Shown here one piece after another: positions 55,807 to 64,000 of a stretch of 64,000 nucleotides of DNA; the stretch's first letter is position 1; every line of letters starts with the position of its first letter. Location of the stretch: positions 62,001-126,000 of the forward strand of contig JADLEQ010000048.1 in the NCBI GenBank assembly GCA_020846005.1, read 5' to 3'. Source of the DNA: Polyangiaceae bacterium (GTDB lineage Bacteria > Myxococcota_A > Polyangia > Polyangiales > Polyangiaceae). Below the pieces are notes generated by a model, which saw nothing but the letters and a program-made list of their open reading frames with translations, had not been told where the DNA came from and did not search any database. The position numbers and the translations under genes were made by a program.

Positions 55807-57027
55807 GTGTCCCGCGCGGAGACCTCACCCAGCGCCGAGGCAGTCCTCACCTTCCTCGAGAGCGCCGGTCATCGCTCGGAGGCGGAGCACTACCTCGAGG
55901 TCTTCCGCGATCTCCCCCGCGAGAGCTTCGCCATCATCGGCGTGGAGTCTGCGGTCGTCGGCCACGCGCTCGACTCGATCGGCGAGCAGCTCCGCTTCCT
56001 GGCCGAGCTCGGGCTGGTGGCTCCGATCGTCGTCGGGCTGTTCGACCCGGCGGGGTCCGAGCGCGCCGCCCAGCGCCTCGCCCGCCGCCTCCCGCGGCTC
56101 GGGGTCGCGATCGAGCGCGTCGAGCCCGTGAGCGCGGCGACGGCGGGCGGCCTCCGGTCGCTCCTCGTCGCCGGTCGCTTCCCGCTCCTCCGCTTCGGTG
56201 CGGAGCTGCCCGCCGAGGACCGCTTCGACCGCCTCGCGGAGATCGCGGTCGCGCTCGGGTCGCGCAAGCTCGTGCTGTGCCGCCGGCGCGGAGGCCTGGG
56301 GCCGCGCGTCGAGCGGTCGATCGAGCTGCTCCCGGGCCACCTGGTCGACGCGAGCGCCGGCGGACTCTCGGTGATCAACCTGCGAGCCGACCGCGTGGCG
56401 CTCGAGGCGTCGCGGCTGCTGCACCGGGAGGACGCGGCGCTCCTCGGCCACCTCGCGCGGTTCCTCGATCGCGCGGCGCCGCGGCCACTGGTCGTCAACG
56501 TCGCCGCGCCCTTCGATCTGCTGAAGGAGCTGTTCACCGTCCGAGGCGCCGGGACGCTGGTGAAGGCCGGCGCCGAGATCGAGCGCTGCTCCGGGTGGGC
56601 GGCGGTCGACGCGCCGCGCGTCCGCGCGCTCATCGAGGCCAGCTTCGGGCGGCCGCTCCGGTCGGACTACTTCGAGCGCGCGCCGCTCGCCGTCTACCTC
56701 GAGCGCGCGTACCGCGGCGTCGCCGTGGTGGAGGAGGGGCGGGTAGCACCCTATCTCGCGAAGTTCGCCGTCGAGCCGTTCGCGCGAGGCGAAGGGCTGG
56801 GAGCGGATCTCTGGCTGGCGCTCACGCGGGAGCACCCGACCCTCTTCTGGCGGACGCGCGCCGACAACCCGGTGGCGACCTGGTACCAGTCGGTCTGTCA
56901 TGGGATGCAGCGGGGGGCGCGCTGGCACGTCTACTGGCGCGGGCTCCCGCCGACGGCCATCGAGCAGGCGATCGAGGAGGCGATCGCGCTCCCCGACGAC
57001 TTCCTGCTGGCGCCCGGGGCGGCGTGA
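55807..57027 (+). CDS. Vertebrate-type N-acetylglutamate synthase
   Basis: A 406-residue protein with an amino-acid-kinase-like domain (about 20-260) and a C-terminal DUF619 GNAT domain (about 265-400). The GNAT part has YLERAYRGVAVVEEG, YLAKFAVEPFARGEGLGADLW and TLFWRTRADNPVATWYQ, closely following the animal NAGS and NAGS-K proteins. LFTVRGAGTLVKAGAEIE is the usual hinge. In the kinase half the nucleotide loop reads FAIIGVESAVVG instead of the lysine-glycine-rich VVKIGG loop, so kinase activity is probably lost. It would make N-acetylglutamate for arginine synthesis. GTG start 55807; it may follow the MutS-like gene in one transcript (69-nt gap). Confidence 0.85.
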   Translation: MSRAETSPSAEAVLTFLESAGHRSEAEHYLEVFRDLPRESFAIIGVESAVVGHALDSIGEQLRFLAELGLVAPIVVGLFDPAGSERAAQRLARRLPRLGVAIERVEPVSAATAGGLRSLLVAGRFPLLRFGAELPAEDRFDRLAEIAVALGSRKLVLCRRRGGLGPRVERSIELLPGHLVDASAGGLSVINLRADRVALEASRLLHREDAALLGHLARFLDRAAPRPLVVNVAAPFDLLKELFTVRGAGTLVKAGAEIERCSGWAAVDAPRVRALIEASFGRPLRSDYFERAPLAVYLERAYRGVAVVEEGRVAPYLAKFAVEPFARGEGLGADLWLALTREHPTLFWRTRADNPVATWYQSVCHGMQRGARWHVYWRGLPPTAIEQAIEEAIALPDDFLLAPGAA

Positions 57028-57837: not shown

Positions 57838-58731
<894 letters not shown>

Positions 58732-58771: not shown

Positions 58772-60130
58772 ATGACCTTCAGCGAGATCCCGCCTCCTCC
58801 GGAGGAGCGCCCCGGTGAGGACCTGCCGTTCCTCCGCGTGCGGCCGCCGGGGCCGCTCAGCCGGACGTGGCGGTTGCGCGCGTCGACCTGCCTGGCGCCG
58901 ATGGGCGCCGCGCCCTCGGACGACGGCCCGGGCGCCTGTCGCGCCGCCGGGTCGCTGGTCCTGGCGCGCGGCCTCGGCTGCAACGTCGTCGACGTGGACG
59001 GCAACCGCTTCGTGGACCTCGCAGCGGGGTTCGGGTCGCTCCTGCTCGGTCACGCGCCTGCGGCGGTGTCCCGCGCCGTCGAGCTGCAGGCGGCGCGGCT
59101 CTGGCAGGCGATGGGTGACGTCCACGCGTCCGACGCCAAGATCGGCCTGGCCGCTCGCCTCGCTGAGCTGCACCCCGAGCGCGGCGCGCAGGTGATCCTC
59201 GGGCAGTCCGGCGCGGACGCCATCACCGCCGCGATCAAGACGGCGGCGCTCGCCACGGGGCGCCCGGGCGTGCTGGGCTTCGAGGGGAGCTACCACGGGC
59301 TCGGCTACGCGCCGCTGGCGGTGAGCTCGTTCCGCCCCGGGTATCGGGCGCCGTTCGCTGCGCAGCTGAGCCCCCACGTGCGCTTCCTGCCGTTCCCGGC
59401 CAGCGCCGCCGGCGCCGCGTTCGTCTTGGAGCGCGCGCGCGTCGAGCTCGCGCGAGGCGATGTGGGCGCCATCGTCGTCGAGCCGATCCTCGGGCGGGGC
59501 GGCTGCGTCGTGCCGCCGCCGGGGTTCCTGAGCACGCTCGGCGCCGAGGCGCGAGCCGCGGGCGCGCTGGTCATCGCCGACGAGATCTGGACGGGGCTCG
59601 GCCGCTCCGGCGCCTGGCTCGCGAGCGTCGACGCCGGGCTCACGCCGGAGCTGGTGTGTCTGGGCAAGGGCCTCGGCGGCGGGCTCCCCATCAGCGCGTG
59701 CGTCGGCGCGCCCGGAGTCATGGCGGCGTGGCGCCGCCGGCCCGAGGTGGTGCACACCTCCACGTTTGCCGGCGCTCCCCTGGCGTGCGCGGCGGCGCTC
59801 GCGACGCTCGACACGCTCTCTCGCGGGGGCGTGGTCACGCAGGCGCGGGGGCGCGGCGATCACGCGCTCGCGGAGCTCCGGGCGGCCGTGGGCGGCGCCC
59901 CGGGGGTCCGAGAGATCCGCGGCGCGGGCTGGATGATCGGCGTGGACCTCGGCGACGTCCCGGGCGCCGCGGCGCGCCTGGCGTCTCGGCTGCTCGAGGC
60001 CGGCTATCTCACCTCGACCGGCGGAGGTGAGCGCGAGGTGCTGGTGCTCACGCCGCCGCTGACGCTGCCGGAGGAGCTGTTCTCCGCGTTCGTGCGCGCG
60101 CTCGGGGATGCGCTATCCGGCCGCCCGTGA
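58772..60130 (+). CDS. Class III aminotransferase
   Basis: A 452-residue PLP enzyme of fold type I. Motifs: GNRFVDLAAGFGSLLLGHAPAAV near 76, QSGADAITAAIKTAA near 146 (phosphate binding), FEGSYHGLGYAPL near 170, VVEPILGRGGCVVPPPGF near 232, VIADEIWTGLGRSG near 267 (Asp on PLP N1), and the Schiff-base Lys near 299 in LGKGLGGGLPIS. Members include omega-amino-acid, diamine and GSA aminotransferases; substrate cannot be read. The ATG at 58772 is chosen as the first start before the conserved region. Its stop overlaps the LuxE-like start (GTGA), strong evidence for shared function with an aldehyde-forming system. Confidence 0.9.
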   Translation: MTFSEIPPPPEERPGEDLPFLRVRPPGPLSRTWRLRASTCLAPMGAAPSDDGPGACRAAGSLVLARGLGCNVVDVDGNRFVDLAAGFGSLLLGHAPAAVSRAVELQAARLWQAMGDVHASDAKIGLAARLAELHPERGAQVILGQSGADAITAAIKTAALATGRPGVLGFEGSYHGLGYAPLAVSSFRPGYRAPFAAQLSPHVRFLPFPASAAGAAFVLERARVELARGDVGAIVVEPILGRGGCVVPPPGFLSTLGAEARAAGALVIADEIWTGLGRSGAWLASVDAGLTPELVCLGKGLGGGLPISACVGAPGVMAAWRRRPEVVHTSTFAGAPLACAAALATLDTLSRGGVVTQARGRGDHALAELRAAVGGAPGVREIRGAGWMIGVDLGDVPGAAARLASRLLEAGYLTSTGGGEREVLVLTPPLTLPEELFSAFVRALGDALSGRP

Positions 60131-61254
60131 GCCTCCTCGAAGAGTCCGACCTGCTCCACGCGCGAGTGCGGCGCTACCTGGCCGCCGCCGGCGCGGCGGA
60201 GCCCTTCGAGACGCTCGCCCTCGCCCTCGCGCGCTTCCAAGCGCGCTGGATCCCGGGCTTCGCTCGGCTCCTGGACGCGCGGAGCGGCTCGCTCGAGGAG
60301 CTGGCGAAGGTCCCGGGCGTCCCCACCGACGCGTTCCGCCTGACCCGCGTCGCGGTCCACCCTCCCGAGCTCGACGAGGCTCGCTTCGAGACCAGCGGGA
60401 CGACGGGCGCGCGCGCCGGCGTACATGCGCTGCGCTCCACCGCGACGTACGCCGCGATCAGCACGTGGGGGGCGAGACGCGCGCTGCTCCCGCCGGGCGT
60501 CGCGCGCGCGGTCGTCGTCGGCCTGGCGCCCTGCCCCGGCCCCGCAGGACGCTCGTCGCTCGGCTGGATGATGCGGCGACTCGTCGAGGAGCTGGACGGC
60601 CGCGCGCTGCGAGTGGACGCGACCGGCGCCGCGTTCGACGCCGACGACCCCGCGCGGTGGCTCGCGGGCGGCTCCGGCGTCGACGTGGCGGGGCTGGAGC
60701 GCGCGGCGCGCGTCGCGCGCGAACGCGCGGAGCCGCTCGTCGTGCTCGCGACCGCCTTCGCGCTCGTCCGACTCGTCGACGATCTCGACGGCCGCCGCGT
60801 CGAGCTCCCGCGGGGGAGCGTCGTGATGGAGACCGGCGGCTTCAAGGGGCGGAGCCGAGAGGTCGACCCGGTGGACCTGCGGAGCGCGGTCGAGCGCGCC
60901 CTCCGCCTCGCGCCCGGGCACGTCATCGGCGAGTATGGGATGACCGAGCTCACGAGCCAACTCTGGGAGGCGCCGCCCTGGTGCGCGAGCGACTCACCGC
61001 GCCTGCGGCGCTTCCGGCCCGTCCCGACGCTCCGGGTCGACCCGGTCGATCCCGTGACGCTGGCGCCTGTTCCCGAGGGGGAGCTCGGTATCGCGCGGAT
61101 CACCGACCTCGGCAACGTCGACTCGGCGGTGGTCGTGCTCGCGCAGGACCAGGTGCGCCGGGTCGGTGACGAGGTCGAGCTGCTCGGCCGCGCGCCCGGG
61201 GCGCCCGCTCGCGGCTGCTCGCTCGCGCTCGAGTCGCTGCTGGGGGGCGCGTGA
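60127..61254 (+). CDS. LuxE-type acyl-protein synthetase / fatty-acid activating enzyme
   Basis: A 375-residue member of the LuxE family (ANL-related). It activates a carboxylic acid as acyl-AMP and passes it to a Cys for the reductase. Motifs: AMP-binding RFETSGTTGARAG near 86, VMETGGFKGRSREV near 236, and GEYGMTELTSQLWEAP near 270. A cysteine 11 residues from the end, at about 364 (RGCSLAL), lies where Vibrio LuxE carries its acylated Cys364. GTG start 60127 overlaps the aminotransferase stop, and its own stop overlaps the next GTG. Its acid substrate need not be a long-chain fatty acid. Confidence 0.88.
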   Translation: MSLLEESDLLHARVRRYLAAAGAAEPFETLALALARFQARWIPGFARLLDARSGSLEELAKVPGVPTDAFRLTRVAVHPPELDEARFETSGTTGARAGVHALRSTATYAAISTWGARRALLPPGVARAVVVGLAPCPGPAGRSSLGWMMRRLVEELDGRALRVDATGAAFDADDPARWLAGGSGVDVAGLERAARVARERAEPLVVLATAFALVRLVDDLDGRRVELPRGSVVMETGGFKGRSREVDPVDLRSAVERALRLAPGHVIGEYGMTELTSQLWEAPPWCASDSPRLRRFRPVPTLRVDPVDPVTLAPVPEGELGIARITDLGNVDSAVVVLAQDQVRRVGDEVELLGRAPGAPARGCSLALESLLGGA

Positions 61255-62375
61255 CGGGGCCTCGCGTCGAGGTCGCGGCCCGGTCCCCGGCCGCGTTCGA
61301 CGAGCCGACCCGCGTCCGGCGCGCGCTCGCGATCCTCGCGGCGGCGGCGCGGATCGCGGATCCGGCGGACCCCCTCGGCCGCCGGGCCCGCGCCGAGCTC
61401 CCCCGGACGACCGGGCTCTCGCCGGAGGGCGTCGAGCTCGCGCTCCGCGAGCACCTCGAGGTCGGCCCGACGGACCGCGAGCTCGGCGCGCTCGCTCGAC
61501 GGACGCCCGTCGTGGCCCGAACGCACCTCGTCCTCGCCTCGACCGTCTTCGTGGCGCCCGCGCGGGCGGTCGCCCTCGCGGTGCTGGAGGCGCCGCGGGT
61601 CGCGCTCCGCCCGTCCCGCCGTGAGCCCGCGTTCCCCGCGCTGCTCGTCGCCGCCGCCCCCGACCTCTGCGCGCTCGTCGATGAGATCGACGCAGCTCCC
61701 GGCGATCACGTGCACGTCTTCGGCGCGGACGAGGCGCAGCGCGCGCTCCGGCTCGCCCAGCCCCCCGGGGTGCGCTTCCACGCGCACGGGCCCGGGCTCG
61801 GCGTCGCCGTCGTCGAGGCGGAGCACTTCCCGGCGCGAGGTCGTGACCACGCGCTCGGTCGCGTCGCCCGCGCGCTGGCGGCGGACGTGGTCCCGTTCGA
61901 TCAGCGCGGCTGCCTGAGCCCGCGGATGGCGCTCTTCGTCGGCTGCGCCGCCGACGCCGAGCACTTCGCGCGCGCGCTCGCTCGCGCGCTCGCCGAGCTG
62001 GAGCAGCGGGTGCCGCGAGGCGAGCTCGCCCCGGCGGAGGCGGCAGAGGCCGCGCGGTTCCGCGACACGATGACCTACGCCGCGCAGCTCTGGCCGGCGG
62101 GGCGAGGGGCGGTGTCGCTCGCGACGGCGCGCGATCCTCTGCCGATCGTGCCGCCCGTCGGGCGGTACCTCCACGTCACGGTGTGCGGCGCCGGGCTCGA
62201 GCCGCTCGCGCCGCTCCGGCCGCTCGTGACCAGCGTGGGGGTCGCCGCCGGGCTCGAGCTCCGCGCCCGACTCGCGCGGGAGCTGCCGAGCGCGCGCGTC
62301 GTCCCTCTCGGCACCATGCAGCGGCCACCGCTCGACGGACACGTCGATCGCCGCGTGCGCCCGGAGACGCTCTGA
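61251..62375 (+). CDS. LuxC-type acyl-CoA/acyl-enzyme reductase
   Basis: A 374-residue aldehyde-dehydrogenase-superfamily reductase of the LuxC family, which reduces an acyl thioester to an aldehyde with NADPH. The catalytic Cys is near residue 220 in FDQRGCLSPRMALFV, the standard LuxC motif; LRPSRREPAFPALL near 121 and VARALAADVVPFDQ before the Cys support it. LuxC of luminous bacteria is about 480 residues, so this one is about 100 shorter, mainly at the N-terminus. It overlaps luxE-like by four bases. No luxA, luxB, luxD or luxG gene is seen. It ends at a hairpin at 62377. Confidence 0.85.
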   Translation: MTGPRVEVAARSPAAFDEPTRVRRALAILAAAARIADPADPLGRRARAELPRTTGLSPEGVELALREHLEVGPTDRELGALARRTPVVARTHLVLASTVFVAPARAVALAVLEAPRVALRPSRREPAFPALLVAAAPDLCALVDEIDAAPGDHVHVFGADEAQRALRLAQPPGVRFHAHGPGLGVAVVEAEHFPARGRDHALGRVARALAADVVPFDQRGCLSPRMALFVGCAADAEHFARALARALAELEQRVPRGELAPAEAAEAARFRDTMTYAAQLWPAGRGAVSLATARDPLPIVPPVGRYLHVTVCGAGLEPLAPLRPLVTSVGVAAGLELRARLARELPSARVVPLGTMQRPPLDGHVDRRVRPETL

Positions 62376-62405: not shown

Positions 62406-64000
62406 TCATCCGCAGACGTTGCCCGCGAGGCAGCGCTGGCCCGCGGTGCAGGTCGTCGACCCGCACACACACTGGCCGCTCGCGTTGCACGTCCCGGCGC
62501 CGCCGGCCGAGCAGTCCGCCGCCGCGTCGCAGCGGCACGCCGCGGACTGACAGACGAAGCCGCTCGGGCAAGCGTGGCCACAGGCGCCGCAGTTCGCGGC
62601 GTCCGTGTTCGGGTCGCGACACCCCGCCGGGCTCTGGCAGCAGATCTGGCTGCCGCTGCACGCGGCCCCTCCGTTGCAGGTGCACTCGCTGAAGACGCCG
62701 TCCTTCTTGCAGCGCTCCCCCGCACGGCACTGCACCCCGGACCCGATGGAGCACCGGCAGAAGCCGGTGCCGCTGTCACACGCCGCGACGGCGTCGGAGT
62801 CGTACTTGCACGCGCCGTCGTTGCCGTTGCAGCCGCACCGGTTGTCGGCGGCCGGGTTGTCGCCGCAGGTCAGGCTCTGCGAGCTGCACGAATTGGAGCA
62901 CCCACCGCAGTTCGTGTCGTTCTCCCGGACGTCCAGCTCGCAGCCGTTGTCCGCCGTCGGCGCCGCAGGGCGCGTGCAGTTGGCGCGCCCCAGCACGCAG
63001 GTCGAGACGCAGAGCCCCGCCGAGCACTCCCGGCTCGCGACGTTCGACGTGCTGCACGCCCGGTTGCAGCCGCCGCAGTGCGCGACGTCGGTGTCGACGT
63101 TGCGCTCACAGCCGTTCGCGGCCTGCCCGTCGCAGTCGGCGTACCCGCTGACGCAGCCGCACGTGCTCGAGGCGCACGCCTGGTTCGCGCCGCAGGGCGC
63201 CCCGCACCCGCCGCAGTGGGCTGCCGTGCCGGTCGTGTCGACCTCGCAGCCGTTCGACGGGTTGCCGTCACAGTCGCCCCAGCCGCCGTCGCACGAGAGC
63301 ACGCAGTTCGTCCCCGAGCACGCCGCGGCGCCGTGGTGCGATCCACCCGGGATGCACACCTCGCCGCTCGACCCGCACTTGCAGACCCCGCTGACGCAGG
63401 CCGCGCCCGTCCCGCAGATGTTGCCGCAGCCTCCGCAGTTCAGGGGATCGCTCGCGAGGTCCGCCTCGCAGCCGTCCACGCTGGCGCCGTTGCAGTCCGC
63501 GGCGCCCACGTTGCAGGTGTACTGGCAGTCGGTCCCCGAGCAGGACGCGAACGCGTAGCCCGCCCCCGACTCGGTGCAGTACTCGCCGGTGCCGCCGCAG
63601 CGGCAGGCGGAGTTCGCGCAGCTCGCCCCCCCGGCGCAGGCGACCCCGCACGCGCCGCAATTGGCTGCGTTCGTGGTCGTCGAGGTCTCGCAGCCGTTCG
63701 ACGGGTTGCCGTCGCAGCTCGCATAGCCCGCGTTGCACCAGCAGGCGCTCGCGTCGCAGTAAGCCTGAGCGCCGCACGACGCGAAGCAAACGCCGCAGTG
63801 CAGCGCGTTGGTCGCCAGGTTCGCCTCGCAGCCGTTCGACCAGGCGCCGTCGCAATTGGCGAAGCCCGGGCTGCAGCCGCAGGCTCCGCCCGAGCACGAC
63901 GCGCTCGCGCCACAGGGGCTCCCGCAGGCGCCGCAGTGCTGGCCGGAGGTCGCGAGGTTCGCCTCGCAGCCGTTGGTCGCGTTGCCGTCGCAGTCCCCAT
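62406..64000 (-). CDS. Cys-rich NGCE-repeat extracellular protein (5' partial)
   Basis: The frame is open to the right edge, giving 530 residues of a longer protein. It is built of tandem units of about 45-60 residues: DCDGNxxNGCE, then a short spacer with CGGCGxxC or CGACGxxC, then CxxxxCxCxxGY. About seven NGCE-type units are visible (for example NGCEANLATS, NGCETSTTTN, DGCEADLASD, NGCEVDTTG, NGCERNVDT and NGCELDVREN). The last 150 residues are diverged Cys-rich sequence ending CLAGNVCG. The cysteine pairing suggests a disulfide-stabilised secreted or surface protein; such proteins are numerous in Sandaracinus/Sorangium-type genomes. No signal is visible because the start is outside. Function unknown. 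Confidence 0.85.
   Translation of the reverse strand, partial: GDCDGNATNGCEANLATSGQHCGACGSPCGASASCSGGACGCSPGFANCDGAWSNGCEANLATNALHCGVCFASCGAQAYCDASACWCNAGYASCDGNPSNGCETSTTTNAANCGACGVACAGGASCANSACRCGGTGEYCTESGAGYAFASCSGTDCQYTCNVGAADCNGASVDGCEADLASDPLNCGGCGNICGTGAACVSGVCKCGSSGEVCIPGGSHHGAAACSGTNCVLSCDGGWGDCDGNPSNGCEVDTTGTAAHCGGCGAPCGANQACASSTCGCVSGYADCDGQAANGCERNVDTDVAHCGGCNRACSTSNVASRECSAGLCVSTCVLGRANCTRPAAPTADNGCELDVRENDTNCGGCSNSCSSQSLTCGDNPAADNRCGCNGNDGACKYDSDAVAACDSGTGFCRCSIGSGVQCRAGERCKKDGVFSECTCNGGAACSGSQICCQSPAGCRDPNTDAANCGACGHACPSGFVCQSAACRCDAAADCSAGGAGTCNASGQCVCGSTTCTAGQRCLAGNVCG

Follow-up and report, generated by a model that had tools for sequence, protein, structure and literature searches.

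The 64,000-nucleotide stretch of DNA analysed here (the window; positions 62,001 to 126,000 of the forward strand of contig JADLEQ010000048.1, assembly GCA_020846005.1) belongs to the 5.7-Mb draft genome of a Polyangiaceae bacterium (119 contigs, 99% complete). Three consecutive plus-strand genes of the window encode a class III aminotransferase (AT; 58772..60130) dependent on pyridoxal phosphate (PLP), a LuxE-type acyl-protein synthetase predicted to activate an acid with ATP (60127..61254), and a LuxC-type acyl-thioester reductase predicted to form an aldehyde (61251..62375). We consider it probable that this trio is a stand-alone pathway from a carboxylic acid to a primary amine, most likely acting on a fatty acid. 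The protein families, catalytic residues, linkage, LuxE-LuxC fusions, co-occurrence and a diagnostic change in the AT active site were observed, and from them we infer which reactions take place and in which direction, and what the substrate and the amino donor are; homology, residues, linkage, fusion and co-occurrence support the acid-to-amine reading. In the proposed mechanism, LuxE would adenylate a free acid with ATP to the acyl-AMP, a fatty acid being the most likely substrate, and the acyl group would move onto the C-terminal Cys364 of LuxE. It would then be handed to Cys221 of LuxC, and LuxC would use NAD(P)H to release it reductively from the thioester as an aldehyde, with neither CoA nor a carrier protein taking part. 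Finally, the AT would turn the reactive aldehyde into a primary (fatty) amine.

Organization and conservation of the trio

The AT gene starts with an ATG at 58772 and ends with a TGA at 60128-60130, LuxE runs from a GTG at 60127 to a stop codon at 61252-61254, and LuxC starts with a GTG at 61251, its open reading frame ending at 62375. The AT/LuxE and LuxE/LuxC junctions are each a 4-nt overlap with the sequence GTGA, which agrees with the two overlaps described in an earlier note on this DNA, and because of them the three genes are probably co-translated. A scan for promoters and terminators returned no match.

The earlier note had named a lack of conservation elsewhere as a finding that would speak against the pathway. 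The neighbourhood search that it proposed shows the opposite. LuxE relatives are present in 221 of the 282 sampled genomes of the source's phylum, and also occur in Gemmatimonadota, Eremiobacterota, Verrucomicrobia and proteobacterial metagenome-assembled genomes, these assignments being taken from record titles and some possibly wrong. Among the 112 loci surveyed, the order AT-LuxE-LuxC is found in 56, the order LuxE-LuxC-AT in 11 (and in two more with a split LuxC), and LuxE-LuxC without an adjoining AT in 23; many of the remaining partial arrangements lie at contig or flank ends. Three loci (L017, L060, and L077) have LuxE and LuxC in a single uninterrupted reading frame. Scores of loci from different phyla show the arrangement, which is therefore more than chance. 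At two loci from one genus (L172 in G099 and L174 in G276), insertions part LuxC from AT-LuxE, yet LuxC still lies on the same strand and no more than about 8 kb away. The L172 insertion includes a reading frame that, by eye, appears to be an IS66-type TnpA.

We then inspected genomes in which LuxE has no adjoining AT, and found an AT ortholog elsewhere in 20 of 22. These unlinked orthologs are 40–50% identical, while full-length paralogs reach 37% at most. They cluster, in a maximum-likelihood tree, with the linked ATs and separately from ArgD, GabT, BioA, and other paralogs; the exceptions in the tree are the divergent L090, which falls among the paralogs, and a long-branched HemL row, which falls beside the trio AT group. 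Co-occurrence was measured in 20 LuxE-positive and 20 LuxE-negative genomes of the source's phylum. The trio-type AT is present in 20/20 positives and 0/20 negatives, the lowest positive scoring 436 bits and the highest negative 357. LuxC is present in 20/20 positives and 1/20 negatives, and two more negatives have weak matches of 54 and 64 bits. The Fisher p values, not corrected for kinship among the 40 genomes, are approximately 1e-11 for AT and 3e-10 for LuxC. One LuxC relative (155 bits; G216:C226:71664-72791) lies in a genome that has neither the trio LuxE nor the trio AT; it must be either a remnant or the partner of another protein.

LuxE and LuxC retain their acyl-cysteines

LuxE scores 29.9 bits against the Pfam LuxE family (cut-off 24.9) and LuxC scores 63.3 bits against the Pfam LuxC family (cut-off 21). 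The C-terminal cysteine of LuxE, C364 in the motif RGCS, is invariant across 32 aligned sequences from distant loci, and the LuxC cysteine, C221 in the motif DQxGCLSP or near variants, is invariant across 31. Both catalytic cysteines are thus in place, as the earlier note had read them, and are the predicted acyl-carrying residue of LuxE and the predicted nucleophile of LuxC. Profiles built from the two sets were compared with the solved fatty acid reductase complex of Photobacterium phosphoreum (7xc6), in which chain A is LuxC and chain E is LuxE. The LuxE profile matches 7xc6_E with an E value of 3.4e-35 over positions 16-348 of 351, and the terminal GCS of 7xc6_E lines up with the RGCS of the trio LuxE. 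The LuxC profile matches 7xc6_A near full-length with an E value of 4.1e-39.

The AlphaFold model of the window LuxC (mean predicted local distance difference test score, pLDDT, 90.1) has an aldehyde dehydrogenase-like fold, and 7xc6_A is its top Foldseek match. The model of the window LuxE (pLDDT 88.9) has its best Foldseek matches among PaaK-type adenylating enzymes, EhpF, and ClxA. Neither protein approaches the NCBIfam equivalogs of the lux system: LuxE scores 18.9 bits against NF052244 (threshold 550) and LuxC 11.6 bits against NF052251 (threshold 750). The two proteins are therefore classified as members of the LuxE and LuxC superfamilies outside the lux equivalogs. A search across the genome found no luxAB-type luciferase, and the absence of a luciferase claimed in the earlier note holds beyond the window. 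The three luciferase-fold matches in the genome are all F420-type LLM oxidoreductases on other contigs, and a role of the trio as a bioluminescence lux operon was rejected for this reason.

The aminotransferase forms a subfamily with a rewired gate

The AT scores 257 bits against Pfam Aminotran_3, and its PLP-binding lysine, K299, is invariant across 29 aligned relatives. In class III enzymes, a Glu-Arg ion pair works as a switch, making the arginine accessible to the alpha-carboxylate of 2-oxoglutarate; the pair is Glu235/Arg413 in ornithine aminotransferase (OAT) and Glu243/Arg426 in the putrescine aminotransferase YgjG (PMC9136103, PMC4244111). In the trio ATs, the gate glutamate is replaced by arginine in 94 of 95 sequences, and the gate arginine is lost in 95 of 95, the residue there being S, T, V, A, Q, E or other. 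The window AT has R242 at the glutamate site and V425 at the arginine site. The unlinked orthologs mostly have glutamate at the gate arginine position, i.e., the Glu/Arg pair is swapped. In contrast, the gate arginine is retained in 10/10 paralogs sampled from other genomes, which have Glu or Val at the first site. The subfamily carries the sequence marker EPIQGRGG, which reads EPILGRGG in the window AT. The change of glutamate to arginine together with the loss of the gate arginine suggests an altered mode of amino-donor binding, and judged from these sequence features the trio AT is a subfamily of its own within the class III aminotransferases.

The best solved relatives of the AT are GABA, putrescine, and ornithine aminotransferases. 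Its closest curated models, acetylornithine and GABA transaminases, are far below cut-off (247 versus 457 bits), and the model of PigE (NF053554) gives 215 bits against a cut-off of 850. Elsewhere the genome encodes ArgD (above cut-off), BioA, an L-lysine 6-transaminase, a HemL-type enzyme, a GabT-like enzyme, and two ArgC-type reductases. The earlier note had counted service of the AT in haem or lysine synthesis as a second finding that would speak against its reading. As haem, arginine, biotin, GABA-type, and lysine-6 transaminases are encoded elsewhere, roles of the AT as HemL (haem), BioA (biotin) or lysine 6-transaminase were rejected.

Substrate and order of the reactions

The neighbourhoods of unlinked ATs hint at what the trio acts on. 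Of 16 genomes, mainly Gemmatimonadota, 12 have a gene for a plant-type enoyl-acyl carrier protein (ACP) reductase (NF004957, 480 bits) immediately ahead of the unlinked AT, on the same strand and with a gap of 30–134 nt to the AT domain. This position couples the AT to fatty acid synthesis and points to a fatty substrate. In 13 Gemmatimonadota-type loci (L034, L039, L047, L075, L076, L080, L086, L087, L098, L106, L109, L110, and L112), the ATPase and permease of an ABC-2 exporter are encoded behind LuxE-LuxC in the same orientation, with ca. 300–900 nt to the ATPase gene, and this exporter perhaps carries out the trio product. Elsewhere, the conserved neighbours, such as the SUF/Rrf2 genes, are unrelated genes that reflect lineage-specific synteny. 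Identification of the pathway from its neighbours was therefore rejected, the enoyl-ACP reductase being the sole informative link. In L191/L192, FabH is encoded about 2 kb away from the AT, but this was discounted as evidence, since a gene on the opposite strand lies in between.

Several observations weigh against the acid-to-fatty-amine pathway. The three genes are not adjacent in some genomes. 7xc6_E is not among the 50 listed Foldseek matches of the LuxE model, for which PaaK-type ligases are best, and enzymes of the LuxE fold, with PaaK, EhpF, and ClxA among the nearest, activate aromatic acids as well, leaving the word 'fatty' unproven. Among the examined neighbourhoods there is neither a conserved downstream gene that would use the amine nor a common tailoring enzyme. 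Lastly, the AT lacks the canonical arginine for the alpha-carboxylate of 2-oxoglutarate, so glutamate as the ordinary donor is not assured.

Some of these points would suit the same three steps with an aromatic, dicarboxylic, or isoprenoid acid in place of a fatty one, yielding a small functionalised amine or a diamine. Among solved folds, those closest to the LuxE model belong to activators of aromatic or small acids, namely PaaK, the phenazine antibiotic protein EhpF, and ClxA; no carrier protein or acyltransferase is linked to the trio; and the AT scores well against diamine and small-acid transaminases. We nevertheless regard a non-fatty substrate as unlikely, because the LuxE profile covers the Photobacterium LuxE near full-length including its terminal acyl-cysteine, and because the AT is tied to the enoyl-ACP reductase in the Gemmatimonadota-type loci. 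Another scheme, which we find quite improbable, has the AT act first. It would make an amino acid or a beta-amino acyl acid, and LuxE and LuxC would convert this, by activation and reduction, to an amino-aldehyde or amino-alcohol. This scheme draws on the AT leading the gene order in 56 loci, on the alpha- and beta-amino acid enzymes and racemases found among class III ATs, and on the rewired gate, with which the substrate charge may sit in a new place. However, gene order is uninformative on reaction order because the order LuxE-LuxC-AT exists too, the AT has not retained the carboxylate-binding arginine, and free aldehydes are normally taken over by a further enzyme, a step for which there is no conserved candidate other than the AT. 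It is very improbable that the AT works in ordinary amino-acid or cofactor metabolism as a mere neighbour of an aldehyde- or alcohol-forming LuxE-LuxC pair: acetylornithine and GABA transaminases are its closest curated models, but the scores are far under the cut-offs, the genome has separate genes for ArgD, ArgC, BioA, HemL, lysine 6-transaminase, and a GabT-like enzyme, AT presence or absence matches LuxE in 40/40 test genomes whether linked or unlinked, and the many genomes that should then carry an EPIQGRGG-type AT without LuxE or LuxC amount to 0 of the 20 LuxE-negative genomes.

Activation, reduction, and amination of an acid, as outlined in the earlier note, remain the best fit, and neither of the two findings that it had named as contrary was obtained. 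A rare secondary-metabolite pathway is not supported: in large parts of the phylum nearly every genome has the unit, it has no fixed tailoring genes, and its AT is tied to fatty acid synthesis in Gemmatimonadota. We tentatively propose that a carrier-free LuxE-LuxC-transaminase route, with rebuilt donor recognition in the transaminase, may supply the cell with long-chain primary amines as one of its regular constituents (a lipid, a signal, or a chemical-defence compound) in most members of the phylum and in Gemmatimonadota, Eremiobacterota, and others, groups that are not known to make this compound class. A gene set found in about 80% of the sampled phylum genomes, shared with several other phyla and with no described function found, suggests that these environmental bacteria routinely produce a metabolite that has gone unrecognised. 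Should this be a fatty amine, these groups would gain a lipid or signal class, and it would become clear what use LuxE-LuxC pairs free of luciferase can have. For biocatalysis, the trio would also provide the parts of a compact acid-to-amine cascade that needs no carrier, and its AT is a natural experiment on how transaminases recognise two substrates.

Comparison with known systems

The nearest analogue is TamA/TamH of tambjamine biosynthesis in Pseudoalteromonas tunicata, which converts a C12 acid to the amine and whose TamH transaminase domain accepts C7-C14 aldehydes (PMC9594044). As proposed for the trio, a free fatty acid passes through an activated acyl group and an aldehyde to a primary amine, with a class III transaminase acting last. 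The parts for activation and reduction are unrelated: in TamA/TamH the ATP-dependent activation of the acid is by an adenylation domain fused to an ACP, in the trio by LuxE with no linked carrier; reduction is by a thioester reductase resembling cyanobacterial AAR and fused to the transaminase, in the trio by LuxC. TamA/TamH is also confined to one antibiotic cluster, whereas the trio is widespread across phyla. PigE of prodigiosin MAP biosynthesis (NF053554) likewise couples a class III transaminase to thioester reduction; unlike the trio, it is a fused bifunctional protein and its reductase is not LuxC.

In the LuxC-LuxE(-LuxD) fatty acid reductase of luminous bacteria (7xc6), both subunits are homologous to those of the trio near full-length and both acyl-cysteines are shared. 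That system feeds the LuxA/LuxB luciferase; the trio has no luciferase, and a dedicated aminotransferase would take the place of the aldehyde consumer. Outside bioluminescence, LuxE and LuxC are annotated together in flagellin glycosylation islands (PMC4875605, PMC7874193), in a flagellar glycosylation context that the trio does not have. GABA, putrescine, and ornithine aminotransferases share the PLP fold of the trio AT, but YgjG and OAT keep the Glu-Arg ion pair, while the trio AT has arginine in place of glutamate and no arginine at the second site.

The principle of going from acid to aldehyde to amine is already known from TamA/TamH (PMC9594044), and LuxE-LuxC outside luminescence is already known as well (PMC4875605, PMC7874193). 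The claim in the earlier note that no described system has this exact trio stands only for the combination itself: we found no description of a widely conserved LuxE-LuxC with a dedicated, rewired transaminase in the open-licence literature. Searches of open-licence papers on the trio, on LuxE in Myxococcus, and on fatty amines among the membrane lipids of bacteria brought up no relevant paper.

Neighbouring genes in the window

A gene for an FHA-GGDEF protein, a putative diguanylate cyclase (57838..58731, plus strand), lies 40 nt upstream of the AT gene. It precedes the trio in 14/14 examined loci of the source's own family, and in 0/7 loci from other families of the same order. This gene is possibly the first gene of the trio transcript and a regulator of the trio, and a link of the trio to c-di-GMP is possible through it. 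Further upstream, the plus-strand gene at 55807-57024 encodes a NAT-domain protein resembling an acetylglutamate kinase/synthase fusion whose kinase part has diverged. An ArgB/C/D-like replacement prompted by this gene was rejected, since the genome has ArgD and two ArgC-type genes. On the other side, convergent with the trio, a long Cys-rich repeat protein with NGCE...NCGxCG repeats and no Pfam match is encoded on the minus strand at 62406-63998 and passes the window end.

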